Shown one piece after another: positions 12,113 to 50,009 of a DNA stretch of 64,000 bases. The stretch comes from Chitinophagales bacterium. Lineage in GTDB: Bacteria > Bacteroidota > Bacteroidia > Chitinophagales > UBA2359. The stretch is from assembly GCA_020629005.1 (NCBI GenBank), contig JAHDEE010000001.1:18968-82967 (forward strand), in the 5' to 3' direction. How positions within the stretch are numbered: position 1 is the stretch's first letter; the number at the start of each line of letters is the position of its first letter. The notes under the pieces are model-generated. The model had not been told where the DNA came from and did no database searches. It was given only the letters and a program-made list of their open reading frames with translations. The translations under genes were made by a program, and so were the position numbers.

Positions 12113-12291
12113 GGTGCAAAATAGCCCCGGGCGCAGCGGTATAAGGTGTATAGGCAGCGTGGCGACTGCCGGCCAATGCTGGCTCCGACCTTAGGAGGAG
12201 ACGGCAGTGGCCGAGCAGGAGCAGCTGAATATATGCCGCATACAAGCGTAGCACGGGGAGCCCGGTTGAGCGTAGGAAATCGTATCGCTCC
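12113..12291 (-). repeat. ~180-bp GC-rich structured repeat, copy 1
   Basis: Read on the minus strand it starts GGAGCGATACG and ends CCGGGGCTATTTTGCACC, like three other copies in the window. Shared internal blocks are CCCCGTGCTACGCTTGT, CTCCTGCTCG, GAGCCAGCA, GCAGTCGCCACG and TACCGCTGCGCCCG. Arms at 12224-12243 and 12139-12158 can pair over 20 nt with 14 Watson-Crick pairs. It lies 168 bp after the hydrolase stop (sense to it) and 57 bp upstream of paralog 2 of the kinase. The rest of the gap up to 12459 shows nothing recognisable. Confidence 0.85.
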
Positions 12292-12459
12292 TAATTAATT
12301 TCAGTTGTTCATTAGGTCACTAAGGATCACAAAATGGCTTCTATTTCTATCACCCTGCCTTGCCCGGCGGTCATGTGGCTTTGGCTATACTCCCTGCTTG
12401 TGCCTTGGTTGGCAAAAGATAAGCTCACCTAACCTGTCAATCAATTAAGTCCCGAGGCA

Positions 12460-14349
12460 CTAAGGATATTGGACCAGCGGCATCCCAACTGAAGAAGCAT
12501 TTTTTTTATATAGATTATAATCTGCGACCGTTACCAGGCGATCCAGATTTAGATCTGCATCGAGGTATTGATAAATAGCAGAGGGATTATTCATGTACTT
12601 GTTAAAGTCGGCGAAGGTCATTGCACCATTTGAGTCAATATCTCCTGCCTTCAGCGCAAAGGCACCGCTGGGAGTGGCTACTTGCTGAGCGGTGCCGACA
12701 GCCTGAGAAAGACTGGTAGAAAAGTCGTAAGACACCAGTCCATTGCCGAGACTAACAAGGTTGCTGACCACTCCAAGATGCCCTCTGGATTTCAAGACGA
12801 TATGACAGTTTTGCGGAGCCGGAATCCCTCTAAATTCGAGTGTTGCGGACCCTGTGACATCTGTGATACTGCCATCTTTATTCAAAACAGCAGCACGGCT
12901 GGCCTGTACTACGTCGCTGGTATTGACCAGCTCCACGAGAATCCAATCTGTCATGTTGGCCGGCACGGTGTTTAGAGATTCTGAACCCGTATAATTCCAT
13001 GGCGATCGATTGAAAGGTTGTGTAAGTGGTATCAAGCCACCTGTGTTTAGTTCTGTTGTCATTTGCGTGCCGTTACCAAGGGGACCCTCCAACATGGCCG
13101 ATGCCTGAAGTTGACAAGCCCCCACGTTGACGTTCAAACTTACGAGGTCCCCTTCAACCACATTGCGATTGATTTCCCTTACGGAAACAGAGTAAGAACC
13201 GGCTGCGTCCCACTCCACAGTGATCGTATTTTGTTCTTGATCGGATGAGAGGATTTGCCCTCCACTGATATCCCAGCAGTAGGATGAACCTGTGCGATTT
13301 TGAACGGTGTAAGTAGCAACGAGATCAAGGCAGGCATCTGTAGGACCGGAAAGTGAGAGCGGGTCTGACTTCATCAGCTCGTAAAGAAAATCGGCTGTTT
13401 TCTCTTGCATTTCGGTGGCAATAGCATCGCTCAACCAAAGTTCATGGCCTTCTCCTGGATAAAGATTAAGCTCATTGACTACACCCAGGGCATTTAATTT
13501 GTCATGCATGGGAATGGAGCCATATAAGGTTGGAAAGAAAGGATAAGAAAAGGGCGTACCAGCATCTGGCAGTACGATGAGATCGTCTGCACCATGGAAG
13601 GAAATCATTGGCTGATCCATGCTGCTGCTAATGAAATCGAGATCTGAGATAGCTCCCCAGAAGTTTATGATGGCGGTTGCTTCACCGTTTGTGGTAAAGG
13701 CATTTCCTGTGCATTCCAAACAGCCGAGGTTAGGCCAATTGCCAAATACCCCGCCTCCATATACGTCGGCAAAAAGCGGCAGACCGAGTATTTCAGATTC
13801 TTCTACATAAGAGGCATGTATGGAAGCTATGGAGCCTGCACTGTTTCCACCGGTAAAGACCAGGCTAGTATCAATTTTATAATAAGAGGCACTGCCTTTG
13901 AAAAATCGGATGGCAGATTTGACGTCTTGTACTGCTCTGTAGACTGCTCGAATGGCGGTACCTTCTGTCAAATTGTGCCCAAGACGATAATCAATCGAAG
14001 CCACTACGTAACCACGGCGGGCCATCGCTCTACAGAAATCAACCAGTTGTGGTTGTTCTTTGAAACCCACGACAAAGGCTCCACCAAAGGCCATTATAAT
14101 CAAGGGTCTTTTTGTTAGCGTGTCACCAGTAGGCTGATACAGATCAAATCTTAAATCCTGATTGTAGGTCGTCGTTTCAGCAACGTAGGGCGGATAAACC
14201 AAGGCAGGTGATGTCCCAAAATCGATATTACTCTGTTCGGTAAGGGTAAAAATCTCTTGTAAGTACCTGTTATTGGTACAGGACTGAGCAGTTGCTTCAT
14301 ATGCGAAAAACACGCATAGAAGCAAGAAAGTTAGCAGAACCTTTCTCAT
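12460..14349 (-). CDS. secreted alpha/beta hydrolase with dockerin-like C-terminus
   Basis: Probable esterase/lipase. The ATG at 14349 starts a good signal peptide (MRKVLLTFLLLCVFFAYEATAQ); an in-frame ATG 21 bp earlier would only add a polar extension. The N-terminal half is an alpha/beta hydrolase: oxyanion region MAFGGAFVVGFKE, nucleophile elbow FTGGNSAGS, an Asp in SFHGADDLIV, and His in GEGHELW. Then comes a PKD-like segment (YCWDISGGQILSSD ... YSVSVREIN) and a further beta region. The end has two calcium-loop repeats of dockerin type (DIDSNGAMTFADFNKYM and DADLNLDRLVTVADYNLYKK). There is no T9SS sorting domain, so it may be secreted to the periplasm or anchored through the dockerin. The substrate is not known. 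Confidence 0.85.
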   Translation of the reverse strand: MRKVLLTFLLLCVFFAYEATAQSCTNNRYLQEIFTLTEQSNIDFGTSPALVYPPYVAETTTYNQDLRFDLYQPTGDTLTKRPLIIMAFGGAFVVGFKEQPQLVDFCRAMARRGYVVASIDYRLGHNLTEGTAIRAVYRAVQDVKSAIRFFKGSASYYKIDTSLVFTGGNSAGSIASIHASYVEESEILGLPLFADVYGGGVFGNWPNLGCLECTGNAFTTNGEATAIINFWGAISDLDFISSSMDQPMISFHGADDLIVLPDAGTPFSYPFFPTLYGSIPMHDKLNALGVVNELNLYPGEGHELWLSDAIATEMQEKTADFLYELMKSDPLSLSGPTDACLDLVATYTVQNRTGSSYCWDISGGQILSSDQEQNTITVEWDAAGSYSVSVREINRNVVEGDLVSLNVNVGACQLQASAMLEGPLGNGTQMTTELNTGGLIPLTQPFNRSPWNYTGSESLNTVPANMTDWILVELVNTSDVVQASRAAVLNKDGSITDVTGSATLEFRGIPAPQNCHIVLKSRGHLGVVSNLVSLGNGLVSYDFSTSLSQAVGTAQQVATPSGAFALKAGDIDSNGAMTFADFNKYMNNPSAIYQYLDADLNLDRLVTVADYNLYKKNASSVGMPLVQYP

Positions 14350-14521
14350 TGTTGTGCAGTTTTGATGCATTGAATATTGCGGCTACAATTGGTGTATAAA
14401 AATAATGATTATTCACCTGATAGCGAAATCCAAATGCTTGGGAAGGGACAATGGCCGGCGTGCAACTGGCACAGAAGAGAAACAGACTTTGTTTGTTGCG
14501 TATTAGCTCTGTCGGCAGTGC

Positions 14522-15619
14522 TTAGACATTGAATCGAAAGTGCATAACATCACCATCTTGAACCGTATACTCTTTTCCTTCAATATTAAGTTTTCCCGCA
14601 TCTCTAACCTGTGCTTCTGATCCGAGCTCTACATAATCATCATAATGGATCACCTCAGCCCTGATGAAGCCCTTTTCAAAATCTGTGTGGATGACCCCCG
14701 CAGCTTGTGGTGCATTAGTGCCTTTTTCGATGGTCCATGCCCTCACTTCTTTCTCTCCAGCAGTGAAGTATGTGATTAGATTTAGCAATGAATAAGCTGA
14801 TTGAATGAGCTTATTGACGCCTGGTTCAGAAAGGCCAAGATCCTGTATGAACTCCATTCGCTCCTCATAGCTGTCTAATTGGGCAATCTCGGCCTCGATT
14901 TCGGCGCAGATCACTAAGATCTCTGCATTTTCATTTTTGACGGCTTCCCGGAGTTTCTCAACATGCACATTTCCCTTGACGACACTGTCTTCGTCGACGT
15001 TACATACATACATGACTGGCTTGCAAGTGAGCAGGTCCAAATCTTCTATATATACTTTTTCCTCTTCCTCTACCGGACAGGAGCGAGCGGAATTTCCTTC
15101 ATTTAGGTGCGCAGAGTACTTTTTGAGTACTGTAAGCCCTCGGATGGCGTCTTTATCGTTGCCCTTGGCTTGTCTTTCCAGCTTTTGGATCTTCTTCTCG
15201 ATAGATTCCAGGTCCTTGAGTTGCAGCTCGGTATCAATTACATCTTTGTCTCTGACAGGATCGACTGAACCATCAACGTGTACAATATTATCATTTTCAA
15301 AACAACGAACGACATGAAGAATTGCGTCGGTCATCCTGATGTTGGCAAGGAATTGATTTCCAAGGCCCTCCCCTTTGCTGGCACCCTTAACCAAGCCGGC
15401 GATATCCACGATTTCCACTGTAGTTGGCAGCACTTTTTGAGGATCGACCAGCTGAGCCAGCTTTGCAAGCCTGTCATCAGGTACATTGATCACGCCCACA
15501 TTGGGTTCGATGGTACAAAAAGGGAAATTGGCTGATTGTGCTTTTGCATTGGTCAGAGCATTAAACAAGGTGGATTTGCCTACATTCGGCAATCCTACTA
15601 TTCCGCATTGAAGAGCCAT
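14522..15619 (-). CDS. ychF: redox-regulated ATPase YchF (OBG family)
   Basis: Ribosome-associated OBG-family ATPase. The G1 motif GLPNVGKSTLFNALT, the G3 region VDIAGLVKGASKGEGLGNQF and the C-terminal TGS domain (FFTAGEKEVRAWTI ... GFIRAEVIHYDDYVELG, DGDVMHFRFNV) are all present. The G4 position reads YVCNVDED, in line with the NxxE/D form that gives YchF its ATP preference. The ATG at 15619 (MALQCGIVGLPNV) is the usual start; the frame extends nine codons further upstream. The 365-aa length is typical. Confidence 0.96.
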   Translation of the reverse strand: MALQCGIVGLPNVGKSTLFNALTNAKAQSANFPFCTIEPNVGVINVPDDRLAKLAQLVDPQKVLPTTVEIVDIAGLVKGASKGEGLGNQFLANIRMTDAILHVVRCFENDNIVHVDGSVDPVRDKDVIDTELQLKDLESIEKKIQKLERQAKGNDKDAIRGLTVLKKYSAHLNEGNSARSCPVEEEEKVYIEDLDLLTCKPVMYVCNVDEDSVVKGNVHVEKLREAVKNENAEILVICAEIEAEIAQLDSYEERMEFIQDLGLSEPGVNKLIQSAYSLLNLITYFTAGEKEVRAWTIEKGTNAPQAAGVIHTDFEKGFIRAEVIHYDDYVELGSEAQVRDAGKLNIEGKEYTVQDGDVMHFRFNV

Positions 15620-15781
15620 TTGGAGATTCTTTTTTTGAGGCAGCAAATATACATGTCTTGCCTTGATATAGCTAGTTTACTTTCAATTTCCCAAAATTCT
15701 GGACAAGTATTTGCCCTTGCAGAGCCAGTCTGGAGGCATATTTTTTTCCTGACTAATCCATCCTGCATAAATACAGTCAAA

Positions 15782-15813
15782 TTCGGAAGGTGTGGATTAA
15801 TACACTATTTTTG
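15782..15813 (+). promoter_or_regulatory. candidate promoter for the M4 protease
   Basis: TATTTTTG at 15806-15813 is an exact TAnnTTTG box. TTC at 15782-15784 lies 21 bp upstream in the -33 position, one base off TTG. The ATG at 15860 is 46 bp downstream. Confidence 0.5.
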
Positions 15814-15859
15814 AAGTCATTGTTTCCCAGTTGGGACACTAGCCTAAAAGCAACACAAC

Positions 15860-18800
15860 ATGAAATCTTACCAAATTTACGTTCTGCTACTTACTGTGGG
15901 ACTAAGTGTTTGTTCCTTATTGCAAGCACAACAAGTAAATCCGTTTGATAGCAAGAAAAAGACCGAAATCGGCAGTCCCACTATAGATGTTCCTCTACTT
16001 GAGGTTAAGGGTTCTGATATAAGTAACAGTCCTTTTGTCAAGGAATATAATCCGCTACCATTCTTGGGAAGAGGAATGTCTGCTGCCCAGCGCCCCGGCA
16101 GCGAATTGAGTTTTGACGAAAACTCTTCCGTGCCGATTTTCGCTCGCGGACCGCACCTGGAATCCATGCCTGTATTGGAAAGTGATGAACAAGCCACAGC
16201 AATGGCATACGAGTACCTTGAAGAGATCAAAACTGATCTGGGTATCAAAGCACCTCTCGAAGAATTCGCGTTTAGGGAATCGATCCGGGATCAGAAAGGT
16301 AACCTGCACTTAAGGTTCCAGCAAATGTGTGGACAATATGAGGTACATGCCTCAGACATTGTTGTACACTTGTTGAGCGATGGGAAGAGAATGGTCAATG
16401 GCAGATTTCATCATAGCGCTACAGATCGTCAATTTGTAGCAGAATTGAGTGAAGCGGAAATTCAGGAAATTCTTCAGACAGATTTGGAGAGCCAGACAAA
16501 GGTTACTGAGCTTTGCGATCATGCAAAGGACATGATGCACTATCACGGCCCTGAAAGTAAATTGGTTGTCTACTATAAGAAGGGCTACGTTTCGGTGCCG
16601 ACACTGGCCTACTATGTGGTTGCCAGGCCAAATTTCCTGGAGAGATGGGAGTATATCGTTGATGCCGTAACTGGTGAAATTCTTCAGGAAATCAACAGTA
16701 CTTGCGAAGCTGGACCTACCACAGCTACGGACACCGACCTAAACGGGGACAGCAGAACACTGCAAGTGTACGAAGATGGCGGAACCTACATCATGCTTGA
16801 TGTAACCAAGGACATGTATTCGGGGCCTGGCGCTAGCCTTCCCGACTTGGGTGATGGCTTGATCCTCACCTATGATATGCAGAACAATTCTCCAAATTCC
16901 GGAGCAAACATACAGCCTGTAACCAGCAATAACAACAACTGGGATGCTAAGGAAGTATCTGCACACTGGAATGCCAGCAGGGCCTTCGACTACTTCAAGA
17001 ATACTTTCGGAAGAAACTCCATAGATGGTGATGGCGGAGATGTTTACTCCTTCATTAATGTTGCTGATCAGAATGGAAGTTCTATGGATAATGCCTTTTG
17101 GAACGGGGTGGGAATTTACTACGGTAACGGAGCACAGGCTTTTACTCCACTTGCAGGAGGCCTGGATGTTGCCGGCCATGAAATGTCGCATGGTGTAGTG
17201 GAGCACACAGCAAATCTTGAATATCAATATGAATCAGGAGCGCTCAACGAGTCCTTCGCCGATATTTTTGGTGCGATGATTGACCGTGACGATTGGAAGA
17301 TCGGAGAAGACATAGTCAACTCTAGTGTTTTCCCGTCGGGAGCAATGCGTGATATGCAAAACCCTCACAATGGTGGAACCAGCTTCAACAACTTTTACTA
17401 TCAACCTGAAAAGGTTTCGGAAAAATATACCGGATCACAGGATAATGGTGGTGTTCATTTAAACAGCGGTATCCCGAATCATGCCTTTTATCTATTTGCT
17501 ACCAATGTTGGCAAAGACAAAGCAGAGGACACCTTTTATAAAGCCTTGCAACAATATCTGACCAGATCTTCGCAATTCATTGACCTTCGTCTGGCAGTCT
17601 TACAATCTTGTGAAGACCTCTATGGTGCTGGTTCTTCAGAACTGAATGCCGCGATTAATGCATTTGATCAGGTGGAGATCTTTGGACCGAATACTGGAAA
17701 CGGCGGTGGATCTGGGGACGTTAGTGATCTGGAAGAAAATCCGGGTCAGGAATACATAGTATTCACAGATACAAACGGTAATGATCCAGTCACCATGTAT
17801 GTGACCAATGCTGAGGCTTCTGAATTCATACCAATTACACAAACCCCACATAGTCGTAGAATCAGTATGTCCGATGATGGGACGCTTGGGGTATTCGTTG
17901 ATGATGAGGGCCACATACGCTTGGTAAATATGAATCTGGATAATCCTCAAGAAACGGTGATCAGCACAGACGCAGAATGGGATAATGTAGCAATTTCAAA
18001 AGATGGGCGTTTAATAGCAGCAGTACCAAACTATGTTGATCCCAACATTTATGTGTATGATATTTCTGGAGAAACGGTTGTCGCTGCTTCATTTGAACTT
18101 AGTAACCCAACATCTGCTGAAGGAATCAGTACAGGGGAAGTAAAGTATGCAGATGCTATTGAATTTGATCACACTGGAGAATACGTAATGTATGATGCCT
18201 ACAACGAAATCAGTACTTCTCAATGGGATCAGAACCTCGATTTCTGGGATGTTGGCTGGCTTAAGGTCTGGGATAAAAACACTGGCAATTTTGCCGATGG
18301 CAATATCATAAAGCTATTCTCCGGATTGGAGGAAGGGGTAAGTCTGGGCAACGGCGTATTCTCCAAGAATTCACCATACATAATTGCCTTCGACTATTTC
18401 GATTTTGCAAATGATGTACAGGTCGTACTTGGAGCGAATATTGAAACAAGCGATATCCAGGAGATACACAATAATGATCGACTTGGCTACCCTAATTATT
18501 CAATTGATGACAGCCAGCTGCTATTCAACAGCAGTCAAGGCGGTGAGGATTATATCTTCAGAGTTGGACTACAGGACAACAAGATTCAAGCAACCGGAAG
18601 TCCGCAGACCTTTATCAATGCCGCTCAAAATGGTGTTTGGTTTGCCAACGGCACTAGAAATCTCGAAGTGGCCAATGAATCTTTGGCCAATGATTTTCCC
18701 GTTGAGGTCTTCCCCAATCCCTTTAGTAACAAGTTGACGCTAAACTTCTTACTAGAAAAAGCAGGTCCGGTCTCTATCAATGTAATGGACTTACAAGGAC

Positions 18801-18946
18801 GGATCGTCCTGGCTCAAGCCAGCGAGCAGTTAACGGGCCAGGTGCAATTCGATCTTCAGCTGGAAAATGTGCCGCATGGCATGTATATACTCGAATTACA
18901 AACAGCAGCTGGAAAGAATGCCAGGCTGATAACCAAAGTGCAGTAA
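15860..18946 (+). CDS. M4 (thermolysin-like) metallopeptidase with C-terminal propeller and T9SS type A domain
   Basis: Secreted zinc endopeptidase. A signal peptide (ends SLLQAQQ) precedes an FTP/PepSY propeptide (EYLEEIKTDLGIKAP ... RWEYIVDAVTGEILQ). The catalytic domain has HEMSH with His440, Glu441, His444, the third zinc ligand Glu464 (ALNESFADIFG) and the catalytic His533 (DNGGVHLNSGIPNHA). The 440-to-464 spacing equals that of thermolysin (142-166). From about residue 625 to 945 lies a WD40/TolB-like beta-propeller (GRLIAAVPNYVDPNIYVYD, GEYVMYDAYNEIS), unusual for M4 proteases. The last ~80 residues are a type A T9SS sorting domain (VFPNPFSNKLTLNF). A terminator-like hairpin follows. 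Confidence 0.95.
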   Translation: MKSYQIYVLLLTVGLSVCSLLQAQQVNPFDSKKKTEIGSPTIDVPLLEVKGSDISNSPFVKEYNPLPFLGRGMSAAQRPGSELSFDENSSVPIFARGPHLESMPVLESDEQATAMAYEYLEEIKTDLGIKAPLEEFAFRESIRDQKGNLHLRFQQMCGQYEVHASDIVVHLLSDGKRMVNGRFHHSATDRQFVAELSEAEIQEILQTDLESQTKVTELCDHAKDMMHYHGPESKLVVYYKKGYVSVPTLAYYVVARPNFLERWEYIVDAVTGEILQEINSTCEAGPTTATDTDLNGDSRTLQVYEDGGTYIMLDVTKDMYSGPGASLPDLGDGLILTYDMQNNSPNSGANIQPVTSNNNNWDAKEVSAHWNASRAFDYFKNTFGRNSIDGDGGDVYSFINVADQNGSSMDNAFWNGVGIYYGNGAQAFTPLAGGLDVAGHEMSHGVVEHTANLEYQYESGALNESFADIFGAMIDRDDWKIGEDIVNSSVFPSGAMRDMQNPHNGGTSFNNFYYQPEKVSEKYTGSQDNGGVHLNSGIPNHAFYLFATNVGKDKAEDTFYKALQQYLTRSSQFIDLRLAVLQSCEDLYGAGSSELNAAINAFDQVEIFGPNTGNGGGSGDVSDLEENPGQEYIVFTDTNGNDPVTMYVTNAEASEFIPITQTPHSRRISMSDDGTLGVFVDDEGHIRLVNMNLDNPQETVISTDAEWDNVAISKDGRLIAAVPNYVDPNIYVYDISGETVVAASFELSNPTSAEGISTGEVKYADAIEFDHTGEYVMYDAYNEISTSQWDQNLDFWDVGWLKVWDKNTGNFADGNIIKLFSGLEEGVSLGNGVFSKNSPYIIAFDYFDFANDVQVVLGANIETSDIQEIHNNDRLGYPNYSIDDSQLLFNSSQGGEDYIFRVGLQDNKIQATGSPQTFINAAQNGVWFANGTRNLEVANESLANDFPVEVFPNPFSNKLTLNFLLEKAGPVSINVMDLQGRIVLAQASEQLTGQVQFDLQLENVPHGMYILELQTAAGKNARLITKVQ

Positions 18947-18963
18947 AAAAGACTAGCAGCAAT

Positions 18964-18984
18964 GGGAGCCTCAGTGCTCCCTTT
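18964..18984 (+). terminator. terminator-like hairpin after the M4 protease
   Basis: Perfect 6-bp stem GGGAGC/GCTCCC with a 6-nt loop, followed by TTTGCTTC, 17 bp after the protease stop. The T tract is weak. Confidence 0.5.
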
Positions 18985-19018
18985 GCTTCACCCCTTTCAC
19001 CTCCACAACTAAGCCATT

Positions 19019-19648
19019 ATGAAGAATTTACTGGTCTGCACAATCATAACTCTTTTGCTATGCCTCAATCACCAAGATTGTAAAGCACAGGTCGTCAGTT
19101 TGACTGCAAACATGTACACCTTTGGTTTCGAAAACTTTGATGTAGACACCGACGATATGGATGTTAGTTTTGACACAAAGAGCAATATCTCCGGCAATCT
19201 TCGACTGTACACGAGAAAGCGATGGGCACTTCGACTTGGCGGAGGGATTGATCGCTTTGAATACACTGTAGGTGGACCTAGCATAGGGGAGCAATATGAT
19301 GCTCAACGAAGGGATGTTAAAGGATTGGTTGGATTAGAAAAGCATTTCCAGCTTGGCTCTTCACTTACCTTTTATCCGGGTGTTTTGATTCCTATTACTG
19401 TAGTTGGAGACGACGACATCGTTTCCAGCAATCTGGAGGATATTCAGAATGGACATACAAGAGCAGGACTCGGACTGGTGCTAGGGGCCAACTATGCACT
19501 GCTAAATCTACTCAGAGTGGGGTTTGAAGTGAATTACAACTACAACAACTTCCAGAACGATGTGTGGAGAAATCAAAACCAGCTCCAGTCGGTAAATTTG
19601 TCCGGTATGGACTTCGAATCTGCGCTGACGATTGGAATTGCTTTTTAA
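19019..19648 (+). CDS. outer-membrane beta-barrel-type protein
   Basis: 209-residue exported protein with a clear signal peptide (MKNLLVCTIITLLLCLNHQ ... CKAQ). The mature part alternates polar and aromatic/hydrophobic residues in strand-like segments (MYTFGFENFDVDTDD, GNLRLYTRKRWALRLGGG, GLGLVLGANYALLNLLRVGFE split by eye, FEVNYNYNNFQND) and ends ESALTIGIAF, a terminal strand with a final Phe as in outer-membrane barrels. Size suggests an eight-stranded barrel of the OmpA/OmpX size class. No specific family is recognised. The following gene is convergent, 7 bp away. Confidence 0.7.
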   Translation: MKNLLVCTIITLLLCLNHQDCKAQVVSLTANMYTFGFENFDVDTDDMDVSFDTKSNISGNLRLYTRKRWALRLGGGIDRFEYTVGGPSIGEQYDAQRRDVKGLVGLEKHFQLGSSLTFYPGVLIPITVVGDDDIVSSNLEDIQNGHTRAGLGLVLGANYALLNLLRVGFEVNYNYNNFQNDVWRNQNQLQSVNLSGMDFESALTIGIAF

Positions 19649-19655
19649 TCTTCGA

Positions 19656-21005: not shown

Positions 21006-21121
21006 AAGATTCTATTGACTTCTACTGAGAAACGCTGCAAACTGAGCAGCAGTTGCTTTCTTTTAACAGCAATTATCAAGCCTGTCATATGTGCGGTATG
21101 TAATCAGGGCCCAAAATAGAC

Positions 21122-21676: not shown

Positions 21677-21786
21677 CGCCTCGCCAATATACTAACAAGG
21701 TTTCAGATTGTAGTACATTGAGTGGCATAAATACGTGCTCGCTGAGCATAGGCCTTATCCTGGTGCTCTAGCTACTATCGCCTTGC

Positions 21787-24339: not shown

Positions 24340-24719
24340 AAAATTTTCTCCCAGACCACAGAATTTCTATAATCGCTTCAAAGCAATGAAGATATCCGCG
24401 GCGGAATCAGATGTACAAACTTGTAGATTAGGAGTCGAAAAGTGGAGACGTTACTGCTGGTCTCACAAGATAGCTATATTAATCTACAGATACAACCGCT
24501 ATTTGATAATGGCTTCCAATGGCATGATAATCAGCTTTTTTGTCCAAATTTTACGAGTACGATAACTGTCGGAATCAGCATTTTTTATATCCTGCTTATA
24601 TTTGTGCATCTTCCAGCAACAAATCGAACACACTTCTAAGCAAAAAGAGCAGTTTGTGATCGGTCAATCTGGCCATTCATACAGATAAGTGACATGTTAG
24701 TCTGTGATTAGTCACAGAA
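24340..24719. other. 380-bp divergent intergenic region
   Basis: Lies between the divergent SprB-type cargo gene and the 482-aa protein gene and must hold both promoters. No exact TAnnTTTG box was found. It contains one clear palindrome at 24702-24717. Short ORFs here are AT-biased and show no family features. Confidence 0.4.
24702..24717. promoter_or_regulatory. palindrome CTGTGA-TTAG-TCACAG
   Basis: Perfect 6-bp inverted repeat with a 4-nt spacer, ending two bases before the ATG at 24720. The half-sites resemble those of Crp/Fnr regulators (TGTGA/TCACA), but the spacer is 4 rather than 6. It may be an operator or a leader hairpin. Confidence 0.35.
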
Positions 24720-27227: not shown

Positions 27228-27234
27228 TTTATTT

Positions 27235-27414
27235 GGAGCGAAGCGAACTTGGCCGTAGAAACGGGCTCCCCGTGCTTTGTTCCAATTCAGCCCCGCCCTG
27301 CTTGTTCATGGTCTGGCCCTGTGGTCTCTCCGCAGGCTACGAGCCCCCAAGGCCAGCCATTCACCACAGCAGTGCGAGGCTTCATTTCCTCGTCGCCCGG
27401 GGCTATTTTGCACC
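27235..27414 (+). repeat. ~180-bp GC-rich structured repeat, copy 2
   Basis: Begins GGAGCGAAGCGAAC and ends GCCCGGGGCTATTTTGCACC. It shares the termini and the blocks CGGGCTCCCCGTGCT and GAGCC with the other copies but is the most divergent inside. Local pairing includes the ACGGG-CTC-CCCGT hairpin and CTGTGGT/ACCACAG (27319-27325 with 27363-27369). It lies 7 bp after the DCC gene stop between convergent genes, so it cannot be a leader of rtcB. The rest of the 304-bp gap (27415-27531) has only a GCTTCT/AGAAGC hairpin at 27495-27511 near the rtcB end. Confidence 0.85.
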
Positions 27415-27531
27415 TTACTCTCTCGCATAAGCATTTCAAATCACAAATAGCACCAAGAAAATAATCTTTCGCCCACACTTTGCTAGACCAAGAGGCTTCT
27501 TCTTTAGAAGCAGAAAACGGAGCTGGCACCG

Positions 27532-30149: not shown

Positions 30150-30229
30150 AGGTTTATTTTGGTTGTGCTCAATTCTCAATCTTTTACTGCACAGACTGCA
30201 CTTTCTGCTGACTGTAACGCGAAGGACCT

Positions 30230-30408
30230 GGTGTCAAAATAGCCCCGGGCGCAGCGGTAGAAGGCGGCTGCCATGCGTGGTGACTGCCGCCCAGCAGTGG
30301 CTCTACCATAGTAGAGACGCTGATGGGCGAGCAGGAACAGCATGGCAGCTGACTGCTACAAGCGTAGCACGGGAAGACCAGCGCTACGGCCGGGTCCCGT
30401 TTCGCTCC
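30230..30408 (-). repeat. ~180-bp GC-rich structured repeat, copy 3
   Basis: Read on the minus strand it starts GGAGCGAAACGGG and ends GGGGCTATTTTGACACC. Arms at 30340-30349 and 30267-30276 (GCTGCCATGC/GCATGGCAGC) pair perfectly over 10 bp. Inside are CTCTAC-TATG-GTAGAG and CGTAGC/GCTACG hairpins. It begins 11 bp after the valS stop codon (sense) and ends 80 bp upstream of the TraB/GumN gene start. Confidence 0.88.
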
Positions 30409-30419
30409 AAAAAATATTC

Positions 30420-43200: not shown

Positions 43201-45435
43201 GAAGTTCACTCCAGCAAGGAATCCTACCGAACCCCGATTAGGTGTAAGCGTCCAAAGCTCAGCCATAGATGGTGCATTCACGTTTACGTGAATATTACCC
43301 ACAAAACAGGAACCCGAGAAGATCATCGGATACTTACCTACTTCAAAGCTAGACGGATTGAAGTTCCAACCAGAACTCCAGGACCAGGTCGTGTAATCTT
43401 CCGCATCCGCGTGACCAAGGAAATTAATGATACCAATTCCTTCTTGTAAGTGATCCTTAAACTCCTGGAAGTCGGCTGATGAAGGAGAAGATCCTGGTGA
43501 GCCTCCAGAATATACATCTGAAATGTAGCTATAAGTCTCCACAACTTCACCTCGGTAGACATCATTTTCAATGTGTGTACCCCATTCTGCCAACATGCCC
43601 AGAAAACTCTCAGCCTGATCTGAAATGCCGTCGTTATTGTAATCAGGATTATAAGCACCTGAAAGATGTATCGCTCTTCTAGGACAATCGCGTTTTGCAA
43701 GATCATCACAATAGGTCACATTGGTCCAGGATTCATGCTCTACCACCTTGTCAAAATAATTCTTGACATCAGCTGGCGTATTTGCACTAATTCTACCAGT
43801 CGCAATTTGTGGCCTATAACTCACATTATTGCTTGCGCTAAGTAGGGGATCAGCTGCTGGGTTACCAAAAGAGGGCACCAGGTTTTGAGCAAATATCGGC
43901 CCACTAAAGAGACAAGATTTGTAATTCACTGACTTGCCCACCAGAAAGAGGAACTCCGGCTCAATGCTCCAGTTGTCATTCATATAATTGCAAAAGTTCC
44001 TAATCGCCAAGGGGTGTTTTCGAATCCCCCAGCTAAACATATCGTAGAGCATCTCAACGTCTACGGCTCTAGCAGTATATGAACCACCAGCTGGCGACTG
44101 ACGGTAACTCTCATAGGCATCGACCGGCTGCACTCCACCAAATGACTGGTTGAGCGACGGGTGATAAATCATCACATAGTTTCCTTGATTGTTGATCTGA
44201 GAAAAATTTGTGAATTGACGTGCATCCATCTCCTCCACCGTCTTAAAATAGCTGTTAGAGAAACTGTCAGTAGATCCGAAGAACAGTTCCATCTTTGGAC
44301 CATTTGCTGGATTTGCTTTTATCAAAATCTTGTACACTCCTCCAATAGAGGTAGGAGTATATCTCCTTTTGTTTGTCATGTCATAAAGCACGGGAGCGGA
44401 ACCTCCGTTAAAGCTCGAAATTTCTACATACTTATCACTGTCGTTATCCAAAGAGAACTGGAAACCCTTTTGATTGGCAAAATCAAATTCCCGCCCGTAG
44501 GTTAAAAAGGTGTAGGCAATCGAAAAGTCGTCATCACCAGCTGGATAGATGTCTCCAACAGCAAAATACACCACCTCCGTACGTTCATTTGGCAAAGTAT
44601 TCATCGAGCTAGGAGCTAGCTGCGCAGTAAAGTTCTTTACTGCATATCCTTCATAGGTATCGTCGATATAGACATCTCCTCCCACAGACACCTGTGTATG
44701 GTGATCAGGGTAATACTGAAACTCGTTAGACCTTCCCAATACCTTGCACTCCATTGTTGGCACTGGAGCACCGGGTCCCGTGTACAGTCCCGGCGTGCTT
44801 AGGTTTATGGTTTGAGAATTACTTGTGGAAAGCGAACTCTTGATTACTCCGGATACCCAGCCTTCAGCTTTATCAAATGAGCTATAGGTATTGTTCACGC
44901 CAGCAAATCGAAAAGGAACACCTCCATAGTACGTGTTTCTGTTCCATTTGATGGCAGTGTGAAGGAAGTGGCTTTCCGGGGCCGGAGGATTAGAAATGTC
45001 GTTCGCCTGATCCTGATACCTTGATTGGTTACCATTGTTGTCCCACGTTAAGAAATAGAAAATGGTGTCTGTAAACAATGTTCGCTGATCAGAGAGCTGC
45101 CAGGTACTCACCGGAAACAATGGAGTATCCATTTCTCCGTCATTTTGCTGACCCACAAATTCCACATAATCACCAGGCCCAAAGCTGGAGGTGTTGCTGA
45201 TGTGAACTGGAATCTGTTCTCCTTTCGCGTAAATTTTGAAATTTGAAGCATTGCTTAAAGATACACCCGCAGCACTTAACGTGCTGTAAGGAATTCGGTA
45301 TATCCCGTCGGAATAAACCGGAAACTTGTAGTAGGTCTTATCATAGCCAGAATCAGAAATCCACTCGTTATAATATTGTCCGAATAGATTTGCACTGACA
45401 AAAAGAACCCACAGAATGCATAATAGTCTTTTCAT
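37222..45435 (-). CDS. porU2: giant PorU2-like C25 peptidase with Ig-like repeat array and T9SS type B domain
   Basis: 2737 residues. The signal peptide ends NLFGQ and is followed by the PorU2-type start YYNEWISDSG, GIYRIPYSTLSAAGV. The gingipain (C25) domain has a His in LGHAD (His675) and Cys in SGSCFVGN (Cys710), 35 apart, close to the 33 of gingipain R, so the dyad looks intact. After a CARDB-like segment, a PKD and an FN3-like domain come 18 Ig-like units of about 75 aa (37480-41622), each opening like SVCxGSSTTLSAxG and containing W and a late GC. The end (37225-37479) is a gliding-motility/T9SS type B domain (VPNVITPNNDGKNDAW). It is probably surface-exposed. The peptidase and adhesin combination is unusual; PorU2 identity is by N-terminal resemblance. 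Confidence 0.9.
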   Translation of the reverse strand: MKRLLCILWVLFVSANLFGQYYNEWISDSGYDKTYYKFPVYSDGIYRIPYSTLSAAGVSLSNASNFKIYAKGEQIPVHISNTSSFGPGDYVEFVGQQNDGEMDTPLFPVSTWQLSDQRTLFTDTIFYFLTWDNNGNQSRYQDQANDISNPPAPESHFLHTAIKWNRNTYYGGVPFRFAGVNNTYSSFDKAEGWVSGVIKSSLSTSNSQTINLSTPGLYTGPGAPVPTMECKVLGRSNEFQYYPDHHTQVSVGGDVYIDDTYEGYAVKNFTAQLAPSSMNTLPNERTEVVYFAVGDIYPAGDDDFSIAYTFLTYGREFDFANQKGFQFSLDNDSDKYVEISSFNGGSAPVLYDMTNKRRYTPTSIGGVYKILIKANPANGPKMELFFGSTDSFSNSYFKTVEEMDARQFTNFSQINNQGNYVMIYHPSLNQSFGGVQPVDAYESYRQSPAGGSYTARAVDVEMLYDMFSWGIRKHPLAIRNFCNYMNDNWSIEPEFLFLVGKSVNYKSCLFSGPIFAQNLVPSFGNPAADPLLSASNNVSYRPQIATGRISANTPADVKNYFDKVVEHESWTNVTYCDDLAKRDCPRRAIHLSGAYNPDYNNDGISDQAESFLGMLAEWGTHIENDVYRGEVVETYSYISDVYSGGSPGSSPSSADFQEFKDHLQEGIGIINFLGHADAEDYTTWSWSSGWNFNPSSFEVGKYPMIFSGSCFVGNIHVNVNAPSMAELWTLTPNRGSVGFLAGVNFGFPEYLSNYVEAVHSKFSGDLYGEPIGSCIMSAIDEIYVASAAETTTIFYQGMRKTIEEFTWSGDPAISLIAYENPEYHFENGSNNISFSPQTITDSTTELTIYVTVNNAGDVDFSPLPISITANNPSAGFSQVVVNVAEANPPTGSSLYTYTVDLSTLPSGNTTFTVNLNNGGTITEDCPDNNEASKSIVIPVIGNCGNFQISNTETTYCSSEGPVTLTGTGDSGTFYVNGTITNTFVPATGPGTYNIQYVGTTSGTSCETSSTWTVIPAPSTGGITAQQNTVCLDDSEVVFSYTGTQAAGYSYSWNFGVGADTPIATGAGPHSVNYATAGTKNATLTVTHPDCGSSVSEYQVTVLDEITPPVVNCVSSTSNSVTIDWNTASNVGNYLVDYNGSQVFDNDGQFTLNGLTPGQEVSFYVQASGLGNCGSATSSTIICTASDCPDLNLSISGIEDNQVFCANSGPVALSGFPSNGNFSGAGVSGSTFDPTGLTPGGYTLSYAVPSGDDCPTQQKNVVVVVSGGTTPTIVPSNGSGTLCDGDEITLTVLGDFSSYSWDGGPSTPEYVVNTAGVYTINTVDLDGCSSTNSYSVVPYEVNASIVSNQNDFEICPGESIQLSVSTDGGNSILWDNDDPNATIIVNEVGTYSASVTAANGCTTEVSVEVLEAAIDPPSFSTSTGGNQICNGQTLTLFGPQGYASYSWTLAGQIIQVPLSQSYIEINPELLEGITLEELAGTYELTVISTGGCSSTANYDVELLDIAAPQVDGSLSVCLGSNTALTAVGDYNEYTWSNSAGVAQQVGPTWIPSNPGEYLLCGQNSLGCTLCTPFEIYGGGEPPIVDGVLSVCGNSSTTLSASGDYDNYTWFDGGGSEIGSGQSIIIDSPGTYSVSATSLLSDCEGTETFVVGTGVASSNPEITGSDLICQSGSTILQASGNFVEENYIWYQGNEQVATGTSSYEATTSGTFSVVGSDAAGCQGTSQVFTVSVQQLFDPVLAGSPVICAGGETTLTGEGDSFESFRWLDSEGIILTNESSLTTSIPGEYTLVGISAIGCETSVPVTIENGGITPELNGDTQLCSQESTILSVIGDYQVIDWKNSDDLSVGVGPSVLIDEAGDYEVFGTDQFGCTESLSFTVSFDTPPSPGIDGGNTLCAGSTLELSASGPYSQWTWTNAQGEEIGTEQNISITEAGVYNLNGMTDADCMGSNSIEVGLGELEEPTIDGALSICEGSSTTLTAPEELSCAWYLDGELISGDTSIDLSDQGDYTLICSDALGCQGEREFSIIVGQLPEPSIEGNLAFCEDGSTTLNGPAEYNCTWYFAGELVGTGSEITVSEEGEYQLVCEDDSGCGSQTTFSVLQAVVTSPEVTGELSVCADSPTTLSAPEGETCNWFLDGELIGSESEVTITETGVYELVCESDLGCSASNEFTVANGVLASSPLLDGITNVCGENEVSLTAVGDEFVTFSWANSENTEDPFSTESEVIIEQTGTYVLTGVDAVGCSGSLVFDVNINDVPNLGFEGASTICNGQVTTLQGVGDGLTSVGWYDSEGDLLSEQGELEVSNPGMYTFTAMNEAGCESSIEVEVGSQDLAEPSISGPTVLCQGEEIELVAEDGFVSYEWATDGGVIGTEATLSLTQTGTYSLFVESVEGCTSTALIEIEADVASSPVSIIAGEQFGVCLGETASFTQESVNAAGYSWTFYNNVTGTTLTSDQEAPELIFEEAGDWDVTLLTFGCGTTSDEDAVVGLLNVFDAPQLSVGADQNSYCEGDEVVLTAEGADSYTWNGGGLTDAAGESVIDAPGSGTYIYTLVGVKDGCSSTAEIELDFKALPSITLSPDSTICPGEPIELFASGGIEYSWTGDGLDDEFSDSPIATVTEDTTYEVLITDEDGCSKGGTITVTTDVTVCPEEKVPNVITPNNDGKNDAWVIDFIDAYSGNQVKIFNRWGQLVYEASDYPNNWEGTNQDGDDLPDATYYYVIDKNDGSEPLTGNVTILK

Positions 45436-45936
45436 TTCCGTGACAGGTTAAGTTTGTTGAAATTTTGCACAAAGTTACGAATTTATACCTGAGAATAACC
45501 AGACAATTGTTAATTCAAAACCTTGCTAACAAGGGCAACCAGCACTCGCAAACGGACATTTTCAATATATGAAACATTGTCATTTGCGCAGACTTGTACT
45601 CTGAGCACATGACTGATTACCAGATTATTATGAAATAAATTTTTGTAATACTCAAGGGACCAATGAATTGCAGGCGCAATGATTCCAAGAGCAAGTCAGA
45701 TAAGTTGTTTAATTAATGGTGTAAGTTGTCTATTGCCGGGCAAGCTCCAGCGGAACTCACAACACCAAATTACCCTTGCAAGACTGTGCAAATGAAATAT
45801 CCGCTGCATCTGCTGAGCAAAAAAAGTGCTGAACTACGAAATTATGGCTTATCACTTCCGGCTCATGTCCTCGCTACGATAGTTATCGGGAAATCTCAGA
45901 CAGAAAGGTGGATTGGAGAGTTGAAAAGAAAGGATT
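45436..45936. other. 501-bp intergenic region between the giant gene and tRNA-Leu
   Basis: Contains the -7 box above and a small CCTTG-CTAA-CAAGG stem at 45521-45534. No convincing ORF: the ORF at 45726-45992 runs through the tRNA and ends with the reverse-frame tRNA signature. No terminator was found for the tRNA transcript. Confidence 0.4.
45470..45477 (-). promoter_or_regulatory. exact -7 box TAACTTTG for the giant C25 gene
   Basis: On the minus strand TAACTTTG lies 34 bp before the ATG at 45435. A TTG occurs 26 bp upstream, longer than the usual spacing. Confidence 0.45.
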
Positions 45937-46025
45937 TGGTACCCAGGGTGGGACTTGAACCCACACGGGCATTACTGCCCACAGGATTTTAAGTCCTGCG
46001 TGTCTACCAATTCCACCACCTGGGC
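45937..46025 (-). tRNA. tRNA-Leu (anticodon UAA), CCA encoded
   Basis: The minus strand reads GCCCAGGTGGTGGAATTGG at the 5' end, the anticodon stem-loop is GGACTTAAAATCC with TAA, the long variable arm is GGGCAGTAATGCCC, and the T arm is GTGGGTTCAAGTCCCAC. The acceptor pairs GCCCAGG/CCTGGGT and is followed by discriminator A and an encoded CCA at 45937-45939. Confidence 0.97.
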
Positions 46026-46047
46026 GTGAAGGTAAGAAAAAAAAGAG

Positions 46048-46120
46048 AGCGAAAGACGAGATTCGAACTCGCGACCCCAACCTTGGCAAGGTTGTGCTCT
46101 ACCAGCTGAGCTACTTTCGC
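46048..46120 (-). tRNA. tRNA-Gly (anticodon GCC)
   Basis: The minus strand begins GCGAAAGTAGCTCAGCTGG, the anticodon loop is CTTGCCAAG with GCC, and the T arm is GCGAGTTCGAATCTCG. The acceptor pairs GCGAAAG/CTTTCGC with discriminator T, and CCA is not encoded (CTC follows). It lies 22 bp upstream of tRNA-Leu and shares its promoter. Confidence 0.97.
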
Positions 46121-46145
46121 TTGTGCTTTTCAGCAATTCGGTGCG

Positions 46146-46177
46146 CAAATATAGGATGACTTTCGAGATAATTGCAA
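46146..46177 (-). promoter_or_regulatory. tRNA operon promoter TTG-N21-TATATTTG
   Basis: On the minus strand TTG (46177-46175) and TATATTTG (46153-46146) are separated by 21 bp. The box is 25 bp from the tRNA-Gly 5' end. This is the clearest -33/-7 pair in the window. Confidence 0.8.
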
Positions 46178-46186
46178 CTAAAGAGC

Positions 46187-46207
46187 AAAAAAAATAGCAT
46201 TTTTTTT
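46187..46207 (-). terminator. A8-TAGCA-T8 inverted repeat, possible mutS terminator
   Basis: Eight A, TAGCA, eight T. Read on the minus strand it lies about 115 bp after the mutS stop and just upstream of the tRNA promoter. An all-A/T stem is weak, so this could equally be an AT-rich upstream promoter element. Confidence 0.35.
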
Positions 46208-46321
46208 CGCGCCATTCACAAGCCGTAGCAAATGCCTTGAATTTACCGCAAATAGTCACTTGCCTCTCTCGATACACCAATGATATGCTTAGCCTGCTAT
46301 ACAAGATCCGCCAACACAACA

Positions 46322-48940
46322 TCAACAAAGCTTTTTGAGTTCCTGCAATTTCAAGAGCGCCTCGATTGGGGTCATGCTGTTGAGATCCAGAGACATCAAT
46401 TGCTCTTGCAACTGCTTTAACAATGGGTCCATCTCAAATATACTCAGCTGCATATTACTTCTGACCGGCATCGTCTGCAAGTCCTGCCCTATTGCTCCTT
46501 CAATATTCTTTTTTTCCAACACCGCCAGAATCTCCGTAGCCCGCTGGACAAGTTCAGTGGGCATACCAGCCATCCTTGCTACATGGATTCCAAAACTGTG
46601 CTTGCTGCCCTCAGGGATCAACTTGCGAAGAAAGATCACTTTCTTGCCCACTTCTTTGGTCGACACACTGTAATTCTTGATCCGATCAAACTTTCCCGAC
46701 AGCTCTGTCAATTCGTGATAATGTGTGGCAAACAGAGTTTTTGCTTTTGCCGTTTTGTGCTCATGAATAAATTCGGCAAGAGCCCAGGCAATAGAAATGC
46801 CGTCATAGGTGCTTGTACCACGCCCAATCTCATCAAGGAGAACCAATGATCGCTTGGAGAGATTATTCATGATACTAGCAGTCTCATTCATTTCAACCAT
46901 AAAGGTCGACTCCCCCATCGAAAGATTGTCAGAGGCGCCCACCCTCGTAAAGATTTTATCGACCATGCCTATTTGTGCCTCTTGTGCTGGCACGAAACAG
47001 CCCATTTGCGCCATCAATGCAATCAGCGCCGTCTGCCTCAACAAAGCTGACTTACCAGACATATTCGGTCCGGTGATAATAATCAACTGCTGACTTGCAT
47101 CATCGAGATACAGGTCATTTGGCACATAAGATTCACCCAGCGCCAACTGTCGTTCGATCACTGGATGACGACCCTGTTTGATATCCAGCTCCAAACCGTC
47201 CGTCATATTGGGACGCTGATAATCATTCCTCGCAGATACCTCAGCAAATGACAAGAGACAATCCAGACGAGCTATTGTATGGGCATTATGCTGAATTGGC
47301 TTTATATACTCTCCTACCGCCTGAACCAATTCATCGAATAATCTGGCCTCCAGAAGCAAAATCTTATCCTCAGCTCCAAAAATCTTCTGTTCGTACTCCT
47401 TCAATTCCTCTGTGATATAGCGTTCCGCATTTACAAGTGTCTGCTTTCTTATCCAATCTTCCGGCGCTTTACCTTTGTACTTATTTGTGACTTCAAGGTA
47501 ATAACCAAAGACATTGTTGAACCCAATCTTTAGGCTGCTTATACCTGTATTCTCAATCTCCCGTAGCTTCAGCTTTTCGAGATAGTCCTTTCCACTATGA
47601 AGAATCGCTCGCAGTTCATCCAACTCCTCCGAGACTCCCGCAGCAATGACGGATCCTTTTGATACCTGTACCGGAACCTCTTCATTCAATTCTCTACTGA
47701 TTCGATCCTTGATGACCACACAGGGATTCAGCTGATCTCCAATCACTGTCAAGGGCTTCAGCCCTGAACTCAAGCAAAGTTCCTTGATAGGTCCAATAGC
47801 GATCAAGGCCTTTTTCAATTGCACTACCTCACGTGGATTTATTTTTCCTACTGGAACTCTTGCAATCAATCGCTCAATATCACCAATTTGTGCTATCGTC
47901 CGCCTCAGTTCACCTGCAAGCTCCTCCTTATCCTTCAGAAAACCAACCACATCCAGGCGCTCCTCAACCGCCGTTCGCTCCCGAAGAGGCAAAGCAATCC
48001 ACTTCTTTAGCAACCTGCTTCCCATAGCTGTCTTTGTACTATCAAGAATGCGCAGCAATGGTACACCATTCTCATTTGGACTATGCAACAACTCCAAATT
48101 GCGAATAGTAAAGTTATCCAGCCAAACATATTTATCCTGATGCAACCTTCGAAGGGAACTAATATGTTGCATTCCAGCTTTTGCCGTTTCTTGTATATAG
48201 TGAAGCGCCGCGCCAGCAGCTACTACCCCCACAGTCATGCCCTGTACTCCAAAACCTTTCAGATTCTTTGTCCCAAAGTGTTTCAGCAGTGTCTCTCTGG
48301 CAAAATCTTCTGAGAACACCCAATCTTCTAATCCGTAAGTATAGTAACGCTCCCCAAAATGCTCACTAATCTGCTTCTTGTCAGTCTTGCAAAAGATCAG
48401 CTCAGCAGGACTAAAGCTCTGCAACAACTTATCTATCTGAGACACGTTTCCTTCTGCAACAAGAAACTCACCTGTTGAGGCATCCAGAAAAGAAAGACCC
48501 ATTTGTTCCGACCTATAGCAGATCGAGCACAAATAATTATTGGACTTGTGATCCAATATCTTATCATTCAATGCCACCCCAGGTGTTACCAATTCTGTCA
48601 CACCCCTCTTCACCAGTTTTTTTGTGCTCTTGGGATCTTCCAGTTGCTCGCAAATCGCTGCCCGGTAACCTGCCTTCACAAGTTTAGGGAGATAAGTATC
48701 CAATGCATGGTGCGGAAAACCCGCCAACTCCACCTCATTGGCGGAGCCATTGCCTCGCTTTGTCAAAGTGATTCCGAGTACTGATGCTGCAGTGATAGCA
48801 TCTTTGCCAAATGTTTCGTAAAAATCTCCTACTCTAAACAACAATATGGCGTCAGGGTGAGTTGCTTTTATATTGTTGTATTGTACCATCAAAGGCGTTG
48901 CCTTTTTTTCCTTCTTCCTCTTCGCCAATTTTCCTTTCAA
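46322..48940 (-). CDS. mutS: DNA mismatch repair protein MutS
   Basis: Recognises mismatches and small loops and starts methyl-independent or MutL-directed repair. Family features: the mismatch-binding loop region HPDAILLFRVGDFYETFGKDA (GDFYE with Phe-x-Glu motif); Walker A TGPNMSGKSALLRQ; ABC signature region ASDNLSMGESTFMVEM; Walker B LVLLDEIGRGTSTYDG; and FATHYHELTEL. The 872-aa length fits MutS1. The start at 48940 adds a Lys-rich tail (KGKLAKRKKEKKATPL) seen in Bacteroidota homologs. The C-terminus ends in the MutL-interaction region. It is followed by the tRNA operon. Confidence 0.97.
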   Translation of the reverse strand: MKGKLAKRKKEKKATPLMVQYNNIKATHPDAILLFRVGDFYETFGKDAITAASVLGITLTKRGNGSANEVELAGFPHHALDTYLPKLVKAGYRAAICEQLEDPKSTKKLVKRGVTELVTPGVALNDKILDHKSNNYLCSICYRSEQMGLSFLDASTGEFLVAEGNVSQIDKLLQSFSPAELIFCKTDKKQISEHFGERYYTYGLEDWVFSEDFARETLLKHFGTKNLKGFGVQGMTVGVVAAGAALHYIQETAKAGMQHISSLRRLHQDKYVWLDNFTIRNLELLHSPNENGVPLLRILDSTKTAMGSRLLKKWIALPLRERTAVEERLDVVGFLKDKEELAGELRRTIAQIGDIERLIARVPVGKINPREVVQLKKALIAIGPIKELCLSSGLKPLTVIGDQLNPCVVIKDRISRELNEEVPVQVSKGSVIAAGVSEELDELRAILHSGKDYLEKLKLREIENTGISSLKIGFNNVFGYYLEVTNKYKGKAPEDWIRKQTLVNAERYITEELKEYEQKIFGAEDKILLLEARLFDELVQAVGEYIKPIQHNAHTIARLDCLLSFAEVSARNDYQRPNMTDGLELDIKQGRHPVIERQLALGESYVPNDLYLDDASQQLIIITGPNMSGKSALLRQTALIALMAQMGCFVPAQEAQIGMVDKIFTRVGASDNLSMGESTFMVEMNETASIMNNLSKRSLVLLDEIGRGTSTYDGISIAWALAEFIHEHKTAKAKTLFATHYHELTELSGKFDRIKNYSVSTKEVGKKVIFLRKLIPEGSKHSFGIHVARMAGMPTELVQRATEILAVLEKKNIEGAIGQDLQTMPVRSNMQLSIFEMDPLLKQLQEQLMSLDLNSMTPIEALLKLQELKKLC

Positions 48941-49061
48941 TTTAAGTTTTCAATAGCCTCTAAGATACCATGATTTTCTACCAATTTGACATTACTGTGA
49001 TATAGCTGATTTTCCTTTCACTTACAATTTGTGTAAATTTATTGTAAACAAATCCCTAAAA

Positions 49062-49757
49062 ATGGACCTAAGAATTCTATTGGTCGAAGATGAACCCAGT
49101 CTTCAGACTGCCATCAAAATGAACCTTGAACTGGAAGGCTATGAAGTCGTAGCTGCTGGAGATGGTCTGGAAGCCGTCAAGAAATTTGCCGAGCAGAGAT
49201 TCAACATTGCGATTTTAGATATCATGCTGCCCGAAATGGATGGTCTGGCCGTTTGCGAGCACATCCGACTAGAAAATCCAGACATTCCCATCCTCTTCCT
49301 CACTGCCAAAGATGATACCTCTGACAAGATTGAAGGACTGAAAAAAGGTGCAGATGACTATATGACCAAACCCTTCGACCTCGAAGAGTTTCTCCTGCGC
49401 GTTCGGGTTTTAGTCAAAAGAAGCATGCCGCTCGACGAAAAGAAAGAGCTGGAAACCTTCCAATTTGGTGGCAATCATGTGAACTTCCTCACCTTCGAAG
49501 CAAAGACAGAACAAGACCAATTCAACCTCACAAAGAAAGAAGCCAAGTTACTCAAGCTACTCATAGATCGCCGAAACGAAGTCGTGAGCCGAGAGCAGAT
49601 TCTACAATTCGTATGGGGTTATGATGTTTACCCTACCACACGAACGATAGACAACTTTATATTAAACTTCAGGAAATATTTCGAGCAGGACCCCAAAAAT
49701 CCCACCTTTTTTCAATCGGTTCGAGGAGTTGGCTACAAGTTTCTCCACGCAGGTTAA
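49062..49757 (+). CDS. OmpR/PhoB family response regulator
   Basis: DNA-binding response regulator. The ATG at 49062 (MDLRILLVEDEPSLQTA) is the natural start; an earlier in-frame start would add 11 residues. Receiver: acidic D10-E11 (VEDE), phospho-acceptor Asp53 (AILDIMLPEMDG), Thr81 and Lys103 (DDYMTKPFD). The C-terminal winged helix shows LTKKEAKLLKLLIDRRNEVVSREQIL, FVWGYDVYPTTRTIDNFILNFRKYFE (split by eye) and SVRGVGYKF. No histidine kinase is adjacent, so it is an orphan and its partner is elsewhere. Copy 4 of the repeat lies 71 bp after its stop. Confidence 0.93.
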   Translation: MDLRILLVEDEPSLQTAIKMNLELEGYEVVAAGDGLEAVKKFAEQRFNIAILDIMLPEMDGLAVCEHIRLENPDIPILFLTAKDDTSDKIEGLKKGADDYMTKPFDLEEFLLRVRVLVKRSMPLDEKKELETFQFGGNHVNFLTFEAKTEQDQFNLTKKEAKLLKLLIDRRNEVVSREQILQFVWGYDVYPTTRTIDNFILNFRKYFEQDPKNPTFFQSVRGVGYKFLHAG

Positions 49758-49828
49758 AGCCCTGGAAGATGGAGGTTGATTGTGCAAATATGGCAACTCT
49801 ATGCAAATCAGTTAAATAAGATTTTTTT

Positions 49829-50009
49829 GGAGCAAGAGGTAACTCAGTCGCGTTATCTGCTTGCCTGTGTTCCGCTCTTATGTGGCTGGCCGCCGCCTGT
49901 TCCTGCTTGCTGCCTGCTGTCTCTACGGCAAGCTCCGAGCCAGCATGCAGCAGCAGTCACCACGGCATCGACCAGCCACATACCGCTGCACCCAGGGCTA
50001 TTCTGCACC
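49829..50009 (+). repeat. ~180-bp GC-rich structured repeat, copy 4
   Basis: Starts TTTTTGGAGCAAG and ends CAGGGCTATTCTGCACC. Arms at 49879-49889 and 49972-49982 (TATGTGGCTGG/CCAGCCACATA) pair perfectly over 11 bp, in the same place as the copy 3 stem but with other bases. Shared blocks: CTGTTCCTGCT, GTCTCTAC, GAGCCAGCA, GCAGTCACCACG, TACCGCTGC. It lies 71 bp after the regulator gene stop (sense). The lepB promoter is downstream, so the element is not in the lepB leader. The rest of the 49758-50252 gap shows only that promoter. Confidence 0.87.

Follow-up and report, generated by a model that had tools for sequence, protein, structure and literature searches.

Dispersed ~193-nt Structured Elements in a Chitinophagales Genome as a Probable Long Branch of the Flavo-1 Superfamily

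Results

Four Copies of the Element in the Window

The window, a 64,000-nucleotide stretch of a Chitinophagales genome (G000; 6.89 Mb in 456 contigs), carried four copies of a GC-rich dispersed element, whose positions, strands and scores are collected in Table 1. The four copies proposed by the sequence-only reading were present at the places and on the strands it gave, and they could be aligned end to end with conserved blocks. Two strands are distinguished below: the reading strand, on which that reading had drawn the element from GGAGC onward, and its complement, the F strand. According to the covariance model R1, which was built from 32 copies (alignment A2), the element extended on the reading strand from GGAGC to CGCG over 191–195 bp. 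The proposed GGAGC start was retained, whereas the right end had been set about 13 bases too early, and conservation continued past TTTTGCACC to CGCG. The R1 E values of the four copies were 1e-40 to 1e-48 at 164–195 bits, with three of the four included in the training set of the model. The similarity was not confined to the end blocks; its strongest signal was located in the middle of the element, far above chance. The G+C content of the copies was 0.60–0.64 against 0.45 for the window, no transposase was present inside them and no target-site duplication was visible, in keeping with the description from the letters.

Table 1. Coordinates in the window of the element copies, their flanking A/T tracts and two further features. 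The strand column gives the F strand for the copies. Fold values refer to the F strand.
Feature	Position	Strand	Reading strand	R1 score (bits)	Fold (kcal/mol; z)
Copy 1 of element	12100..12291	+	-	195	-88.8; z -4.66
Copy 2 of element	27235..27427	-	+	163.8	z -2.45
Copy 3 of element	30218..30408	+	-	178.9	-104.7; z -6.75
Copy 4 of element	49829..50023	-	+	173.4	z -2.73
A/T-tract flank of copy 1, adjoining the GCTCC 3' end (F strand), presumed target	12292..12298	+			
A/T-tract flank of copy 2	27228..27234	-			
A/T-tract flank of copy 3	30409..30415	+			
A/T-tract flank of copy 4	49822..49828	-			
Second dispersed repeat, ~130 bp	12333..12462	-			
Longest open frame of the window, 2737 codons	37222..45435	-			

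Another dispersed repeat, about 130 bp long, lay 41 bp from copy 1. Its copies were 73–84% identical in contigs L131, L135, L138, L151 and L157 of G001, a genome of the same genus, and partial copies were found in G000 (L026, L077). The repeat was open in one frame over about 30 codons, and a gene fragment is possible.

Copy Number and Distribution among Genomes

A search of G000 with R1 returned at least 150 copies, all scoring at least 153.8 bits, and BLAST with a single copy found at least 40 places. The density was one copy per ~12 kb over 442 kb of contigs that had been picked for carrying copies. From this density and the R1 search, the total for G000 was put at no fewer than 150 copies, with a few hundred being probable. 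The many further copies with the same ends that were expected of a genuine family thus exist, and the copy number and the model scores bear out the proposal that the element is mobilised or selectively kept and not a product of chance. G001 held at least 42 copies, and shorter relatives were detected with R1 in nine more genomes from the same family or order, often with at least 20 per genome. The same search detected zero copies in several genomes of the same family. Exact 18-mers searched against public genomes and viral contigs matched at chance level only, and the literature search found no paper describing a Saprospiria repeat of such a kind.

A second, shorter subfamily of 118–129 nt, covering about model positions 42–159, was observed inside G000 (L064:17185-17303, L070:2058-2176, L065:15765-15893, L061:17188-17308 and L030:1252-1380), and it resembled the copies that dominate G006, G011 and G015. 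Closely spaced inverted pairs of copies occurred in G001 (L159:10514-10934, L160:13333-13767 and L154:4355-4832) and in G000 (L061:17188-17602 and L011:1466-2097), often combining one member from each of the two subfamilies.

Fold and Folded Strand

The fold was evaluated on 65 copies (alignment A4), in which 36 base pairs of the model were scored. Standard pairs filled 95.5% of the pair cells, compared with 65.8 ± 0.7% when the partners were shuffled, and the covariation score was 0.708 against 0.168 after shuffling. Changes on both sides were found at 31 of the 36 pairs, and sliding the structure by 1–3 columns lowered the pairing to 29–41%. A part of the pairing excess is built in, as A4 was fitted to the model; an independent MAFFT alignment gave the same pairs and changes. 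The shape was one long interrupted hairpin with a CCCG/CGGG base followed by helices of variable sequence, an internal loop that was conserved (TGTTCC / CAGTCACCAC, reading strand) and a near-invariant tip (GTCTC/GAGCC). The F strand had in addition a short closing helix and the 3' end GCTCC.

The use of wobble pairs differed between the two strands. On the reading strand, A-C mismatches outnumbered G-U pairs in the model structure (42 vs 10), as they did in another count with a structure predicted on that strand (62 vs 32). The broken pair cells of this strand, mostly A-C and almost never G-U, become G-U pairs when read on the complement. On the F strand, with the structure predicted on it, 167 G-U pairs stood against 27 A-C mismatches. 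RNase P from 30 genomes, treated with the same pipeline as a control, gave 241 G-U and 41 A-C on its true strand, and 81 and 88, respectively, on the wrong one. Moreover, the F strand was the more stable in 63 of the 65 copies, with a mean difference of 13 kcal/mol. Hence, the wobble counts and the folding energies identify the folded strand as the complement of the strand drawn in the sequence-only reading, which had the places and orientations of the copies right. These results point to an active form that is a single strand with RNA-like wobble use. RNA is the most likely candidate on the basis of G-U use and stability, and single-stranded DNA with G-T pairs is possible.

The changes counted on the reading strand comprised 6 one-sided and 628 double ones. 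The scarcity of G-U intermediates was considered as a sign of arm correction at the DNA level, and this idea was dropped because the wrong strand of RNase P showed a like scarcity.

Genomic Setting

The copies were intergenic. Relative to the F strand, the upstream neighbour was in the opposite orientation in 22 of 35 cases and the downstream neighbour in 21 of 35, so that no significant orientation bias was found, and the copies had no common neighbour gene. Both results are evidence against a cis-regulatory role; a role as terminator, riboswitch or 3'-UTR was rejected on the absent orientation bias. An autonomous version with a common gene was also sought among the neighbours and none was present, the neighbour clusters being mostly translations of the element itself. 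The setting agrees with an element under selection for its own propagation and tolerated where the harm is slight.

Mobility and Insertion Target

Two copies on different contigs, L073:10908-11102 and L011:1466-1660, were 90% identical from GGAGC to CGCGCA, and their flanks were unrelated. No target duplication was found for this pair. At least one recent copying event has therefore taken place. Most copies were old, with a median identity of 58%. The comparison with G001 gave different results from site to site: the site orthologous to copy 3 held a copy in the same orientation (L145:19289-19481), the intergenic region orthologous to copy 4 held an oppositely oriented one (L154:19417-19609), and a partial copy, also reversed, lay near the site of copy 1. 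In a syntenic stretch, G000 and G001 each had one copy that was missing from the other. No exact empty site was readable against G001, the intergenic flanks of the two species being too diverged.

The bases before GGAG on the reading strand were A/T only in most copies, and the consensus over 58 copies was WTTWTTW|GGAG, with T at position -3 in 95% and at -2 in 97% of copies. The comparison of flanks revealed no A/T preference on the opposite side. Such a one-sided target is compatible with a DNA route like that of IS200/REP elements and with target-primed reverse transcription alike.

Low-complexity runs (for example, TTCAGTGCTTGGTG or GCAAAGAGCAAAGAG) adjoined the CGCG end of copies in L006, L005, L016, L022 and L030 of G000, and the run in L006 continued into masked N. 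Such runs may be either targets or products of insertion.

Relation to Flavo-1

The sequence-only reading had tied the element to no known feature class. This held for direct matches: Rfam gave no match in the window at the gathering cut-off, and the Flavo-1 model (RF01705) gave none up to E = 1 in seven loci of the window subfamily. It did not hold once intermediates were considered. Three of the shorter relatives found with R1, L039, L057 and L033, scored 40.8, 36.7 and 31.4 bits with the Flavo-1 model (E 1e-5 to 4e-3). These were near misses of its cut-off of 42 bits with a consistent base pattern, and they matched on the F strand. Since the window copies themselves do not match, Flavo-1 membership rests on these intermediates. 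The 5' block (A)TAGCCCYG, the 3'-side block AGCGGA-AGC-GGG and the end GCTCC were common to the window family, the intermediates and Flavo-1. Each of the four window copies showed the blocks of the basal helix, UAGCCCCG ... AGCGGA-AGC-GGG, as did the intermediates, and past GCTCC both the window family and Flavo-1 read (T/A)AA. An extra 3' segment of about 35 nt was present in the window family and the intermediates and absent from Flavo-1. Judged from these shared blocks and scores, the intermediate relatives probably link the family to Flavo-1, and the best reading is that it constitutes a branch of the same superfamily that is long, lineage-specific and covered by no model.

Flavo-1 was described by Weinberg et al. 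in 2010 (PMC2864571) and has been in Rfam since that year as an sRNA gene; the literature gives no function for it. In a transcriptome study, its matches occurred in either orientation, sense or antisense, and many fell outside transcribed regions (PMC9723704). At least 18 Flavo-1 copies were present in each genome sampled from one flavobacterial genus (g55); Flavo-1 is therefore a dispersed repeat as well, which suggests a spreading genomic element rather than an ordinary small RNA gene. At one flavobacterial site, Flavo-1 was present in some species, a different repeat or 26 bp took its place in others, and one species had a partial copy. At one flavobacterial site (L205:13090-13800 vs L198:5200-5470 and relatives), two different small ORFs were observed directly 5' of Flavo-1 in different species, and species without Flavo-1 also lacked the ORF. 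This cassette-like pattern comes from a single site only.

Discussion

A Probable Mobile Element with a Folded Single-Stranded Form

The four copies are probably (about 65%) members of a high-copy, non-coding and non-autonomous mobile element that acts as a structured single strand of about 193 nt and belongs to the Flavo-1 superfamily as a long branch. This reading builds on what was established above about the folding of the copies and the strand that folds, their number, their ends, their scattered insertion and their presence or absence between genomes. The folded strand would be recognised by a putative factor encoded elsewhere and acting in trans, which would let copies spread. This factor may join the folded strand at its GCTCC end to an A/T tract, and such joining would leave no target duplication. 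Selection on mobilisation would maintain the fold, and the compensatory changes would follow from it.

Other Explanations

The copies can alternatively be read as atypical REP elements, hairpins of single-stranded DNA that a REP-associated tyrosine transposase (Y1, HUH) would copy. "Atypical secondary structures" have been reported around the TnpA-REP genes of subclass 2.6 in Bacteroidetes (PMC6006769). The GGAG at the 5' foot of the reading strand, the one-sided target and the lack of target duplication agree with this proposal, as do the surroundings of all three Y1 genes of G000, each of which had a copy within 181–614 bp. Two of the three were above the NCBIfam REP_Tyr_transpos cut-off and carried motifs like those of subclass 2.6 (NHVH/NHLH and YIHKNP/YIHQNP). 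The probability of this proximity by chance was ~0.008, as estimated after the fact from the local copy density, and in G004 one Y1 gene lay 24 bp from a copy. The association failed elsewhere, however. Other genomes of the order had no element at any of 29 loci with RAYT homologues, and 18 RAYT loci in Flavo-1-bearing genomes had 2 Flavo-1 copies in 81 kb, which is about the background (3 per 120 kb, from just three copies in one genome). Where Flavo-1-bearing genomes had L081-type Y1 loci, these gave no match. Furthermore, G140 and G194, both 100% complete and with at least 18 Flavo-1 copies, had neither kind of Y1 gene, and the copy-rich G001 had no homologue of either kind, which is weaker evidence because that genome is a draft. 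REPs are also described as hairpins of only 21–65 nt with a tetranucleotide foot; the foot is present here as GGAG, and the length is not that of a REP. A RAYT/Y1 transposase as the general mover was thus promising in G000 and unsupported by four independent tests elsewhere, and the REP explanation is considered unlikely.

A more far-reaching and rather doubtful proposal is that Flavo-1 and the long branch together form a phylum-wide mobile noncoding RNA. The structured transcript itself would be transposed, and an enzyme provided in trans would join its GCTCC 3' end to A-rich targets, a life-style similar to that of eukaryotic SINEs.

The family might instead be a host RNA with a job, such as an sRNA family, a 3'-UTR stabiliser or a protein-binding site, which is occasionally duplicated and kept by host selection. 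Very strong compensatory change, wobble pairs used as in RNA, the conserved internal loops and the retention of some copies at orthologous sites in the other species would be expected of such an RNA. Nevertheless, the neighbours showed neither an orientation preference nor a common gene, the copy number differed greatly between related genomes and fell to zero detected copies in several genomes within the same family, the boundaries of the copies were sharp with unrelated flanks, and the reported distribution of Flavo-1 matches with respect to transcription also speaks against it. This explanation is accordingly held to be improbable. Hardly tenable is a conventional MITE, which would derive by deletion from a DDE transposon and have terminal inverted repeats and a target duplication: the F strand has short partial inverted ends (GCGAA...TTCGC) and the dispersal is intergenic, but the end pairing spans only ~5 bp, the recent L073/L011 pair lacks a target duplication, and internal compensatory changes with strand-specific wobble are unexpected in a double-stranded MITE.

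Implications and Comparison with Known Systems

If the element is mobile as preferred here, the Flavo-1 superfamily would be a dispersed mobile element whose active form is folded and specific to one strand. Its copies would number in the hundreds, and it would include a much longer branch without any model covering it. The old question of Flavo-1 becomes testable through transcription of the F strand and through what joins the F strand to A/T tracts. Annotation in many Bacteroidota genomes would be corrected. The case is also a warning that strong covariation and Rfam membership are insufficient to call a locus an sRNA gene.

Among known systems, Flavo-1 shares with the window family its occurrence in Bacteroidota, the same folded strand, the 5' and 3' blocks, the GCTCC end, high-copy dispersal and the lack of orientation preference. 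The Flavo-1 model has 76 positions, whereas that of the window family has 193, and unlike Flavo-1 the window family has a much longer interrupted arm, invariant internal loops, the 3' segment of ~35 nt and a closing helix; its members, unlike those of Flavo-1, score nothing with the Flavo-1 model. The REPs of RAYT subclass 2.6 (PMC6006769) are likewise intergenic, high-copy and hairpin-forming elements of Bacteroidota with a GGAG foot on one strand, and Y1 genes occur near copies in G000. However, the window element is 3 to 9 times longer, the gene association fails in other genomes, and Flavo-1-rich genomes without such Y1 genes exist. The enterobacterial RU-1/ERIC and RU-2 repeats (PMC2759123), compared by description, are mobile repeats as well; they measure 100–170 bp, lie in intergenic regions, are non-coding and carry no transposase. 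In contrast to these repeats, the compensatory change and the strand bias of the window family point to a folded single strand.
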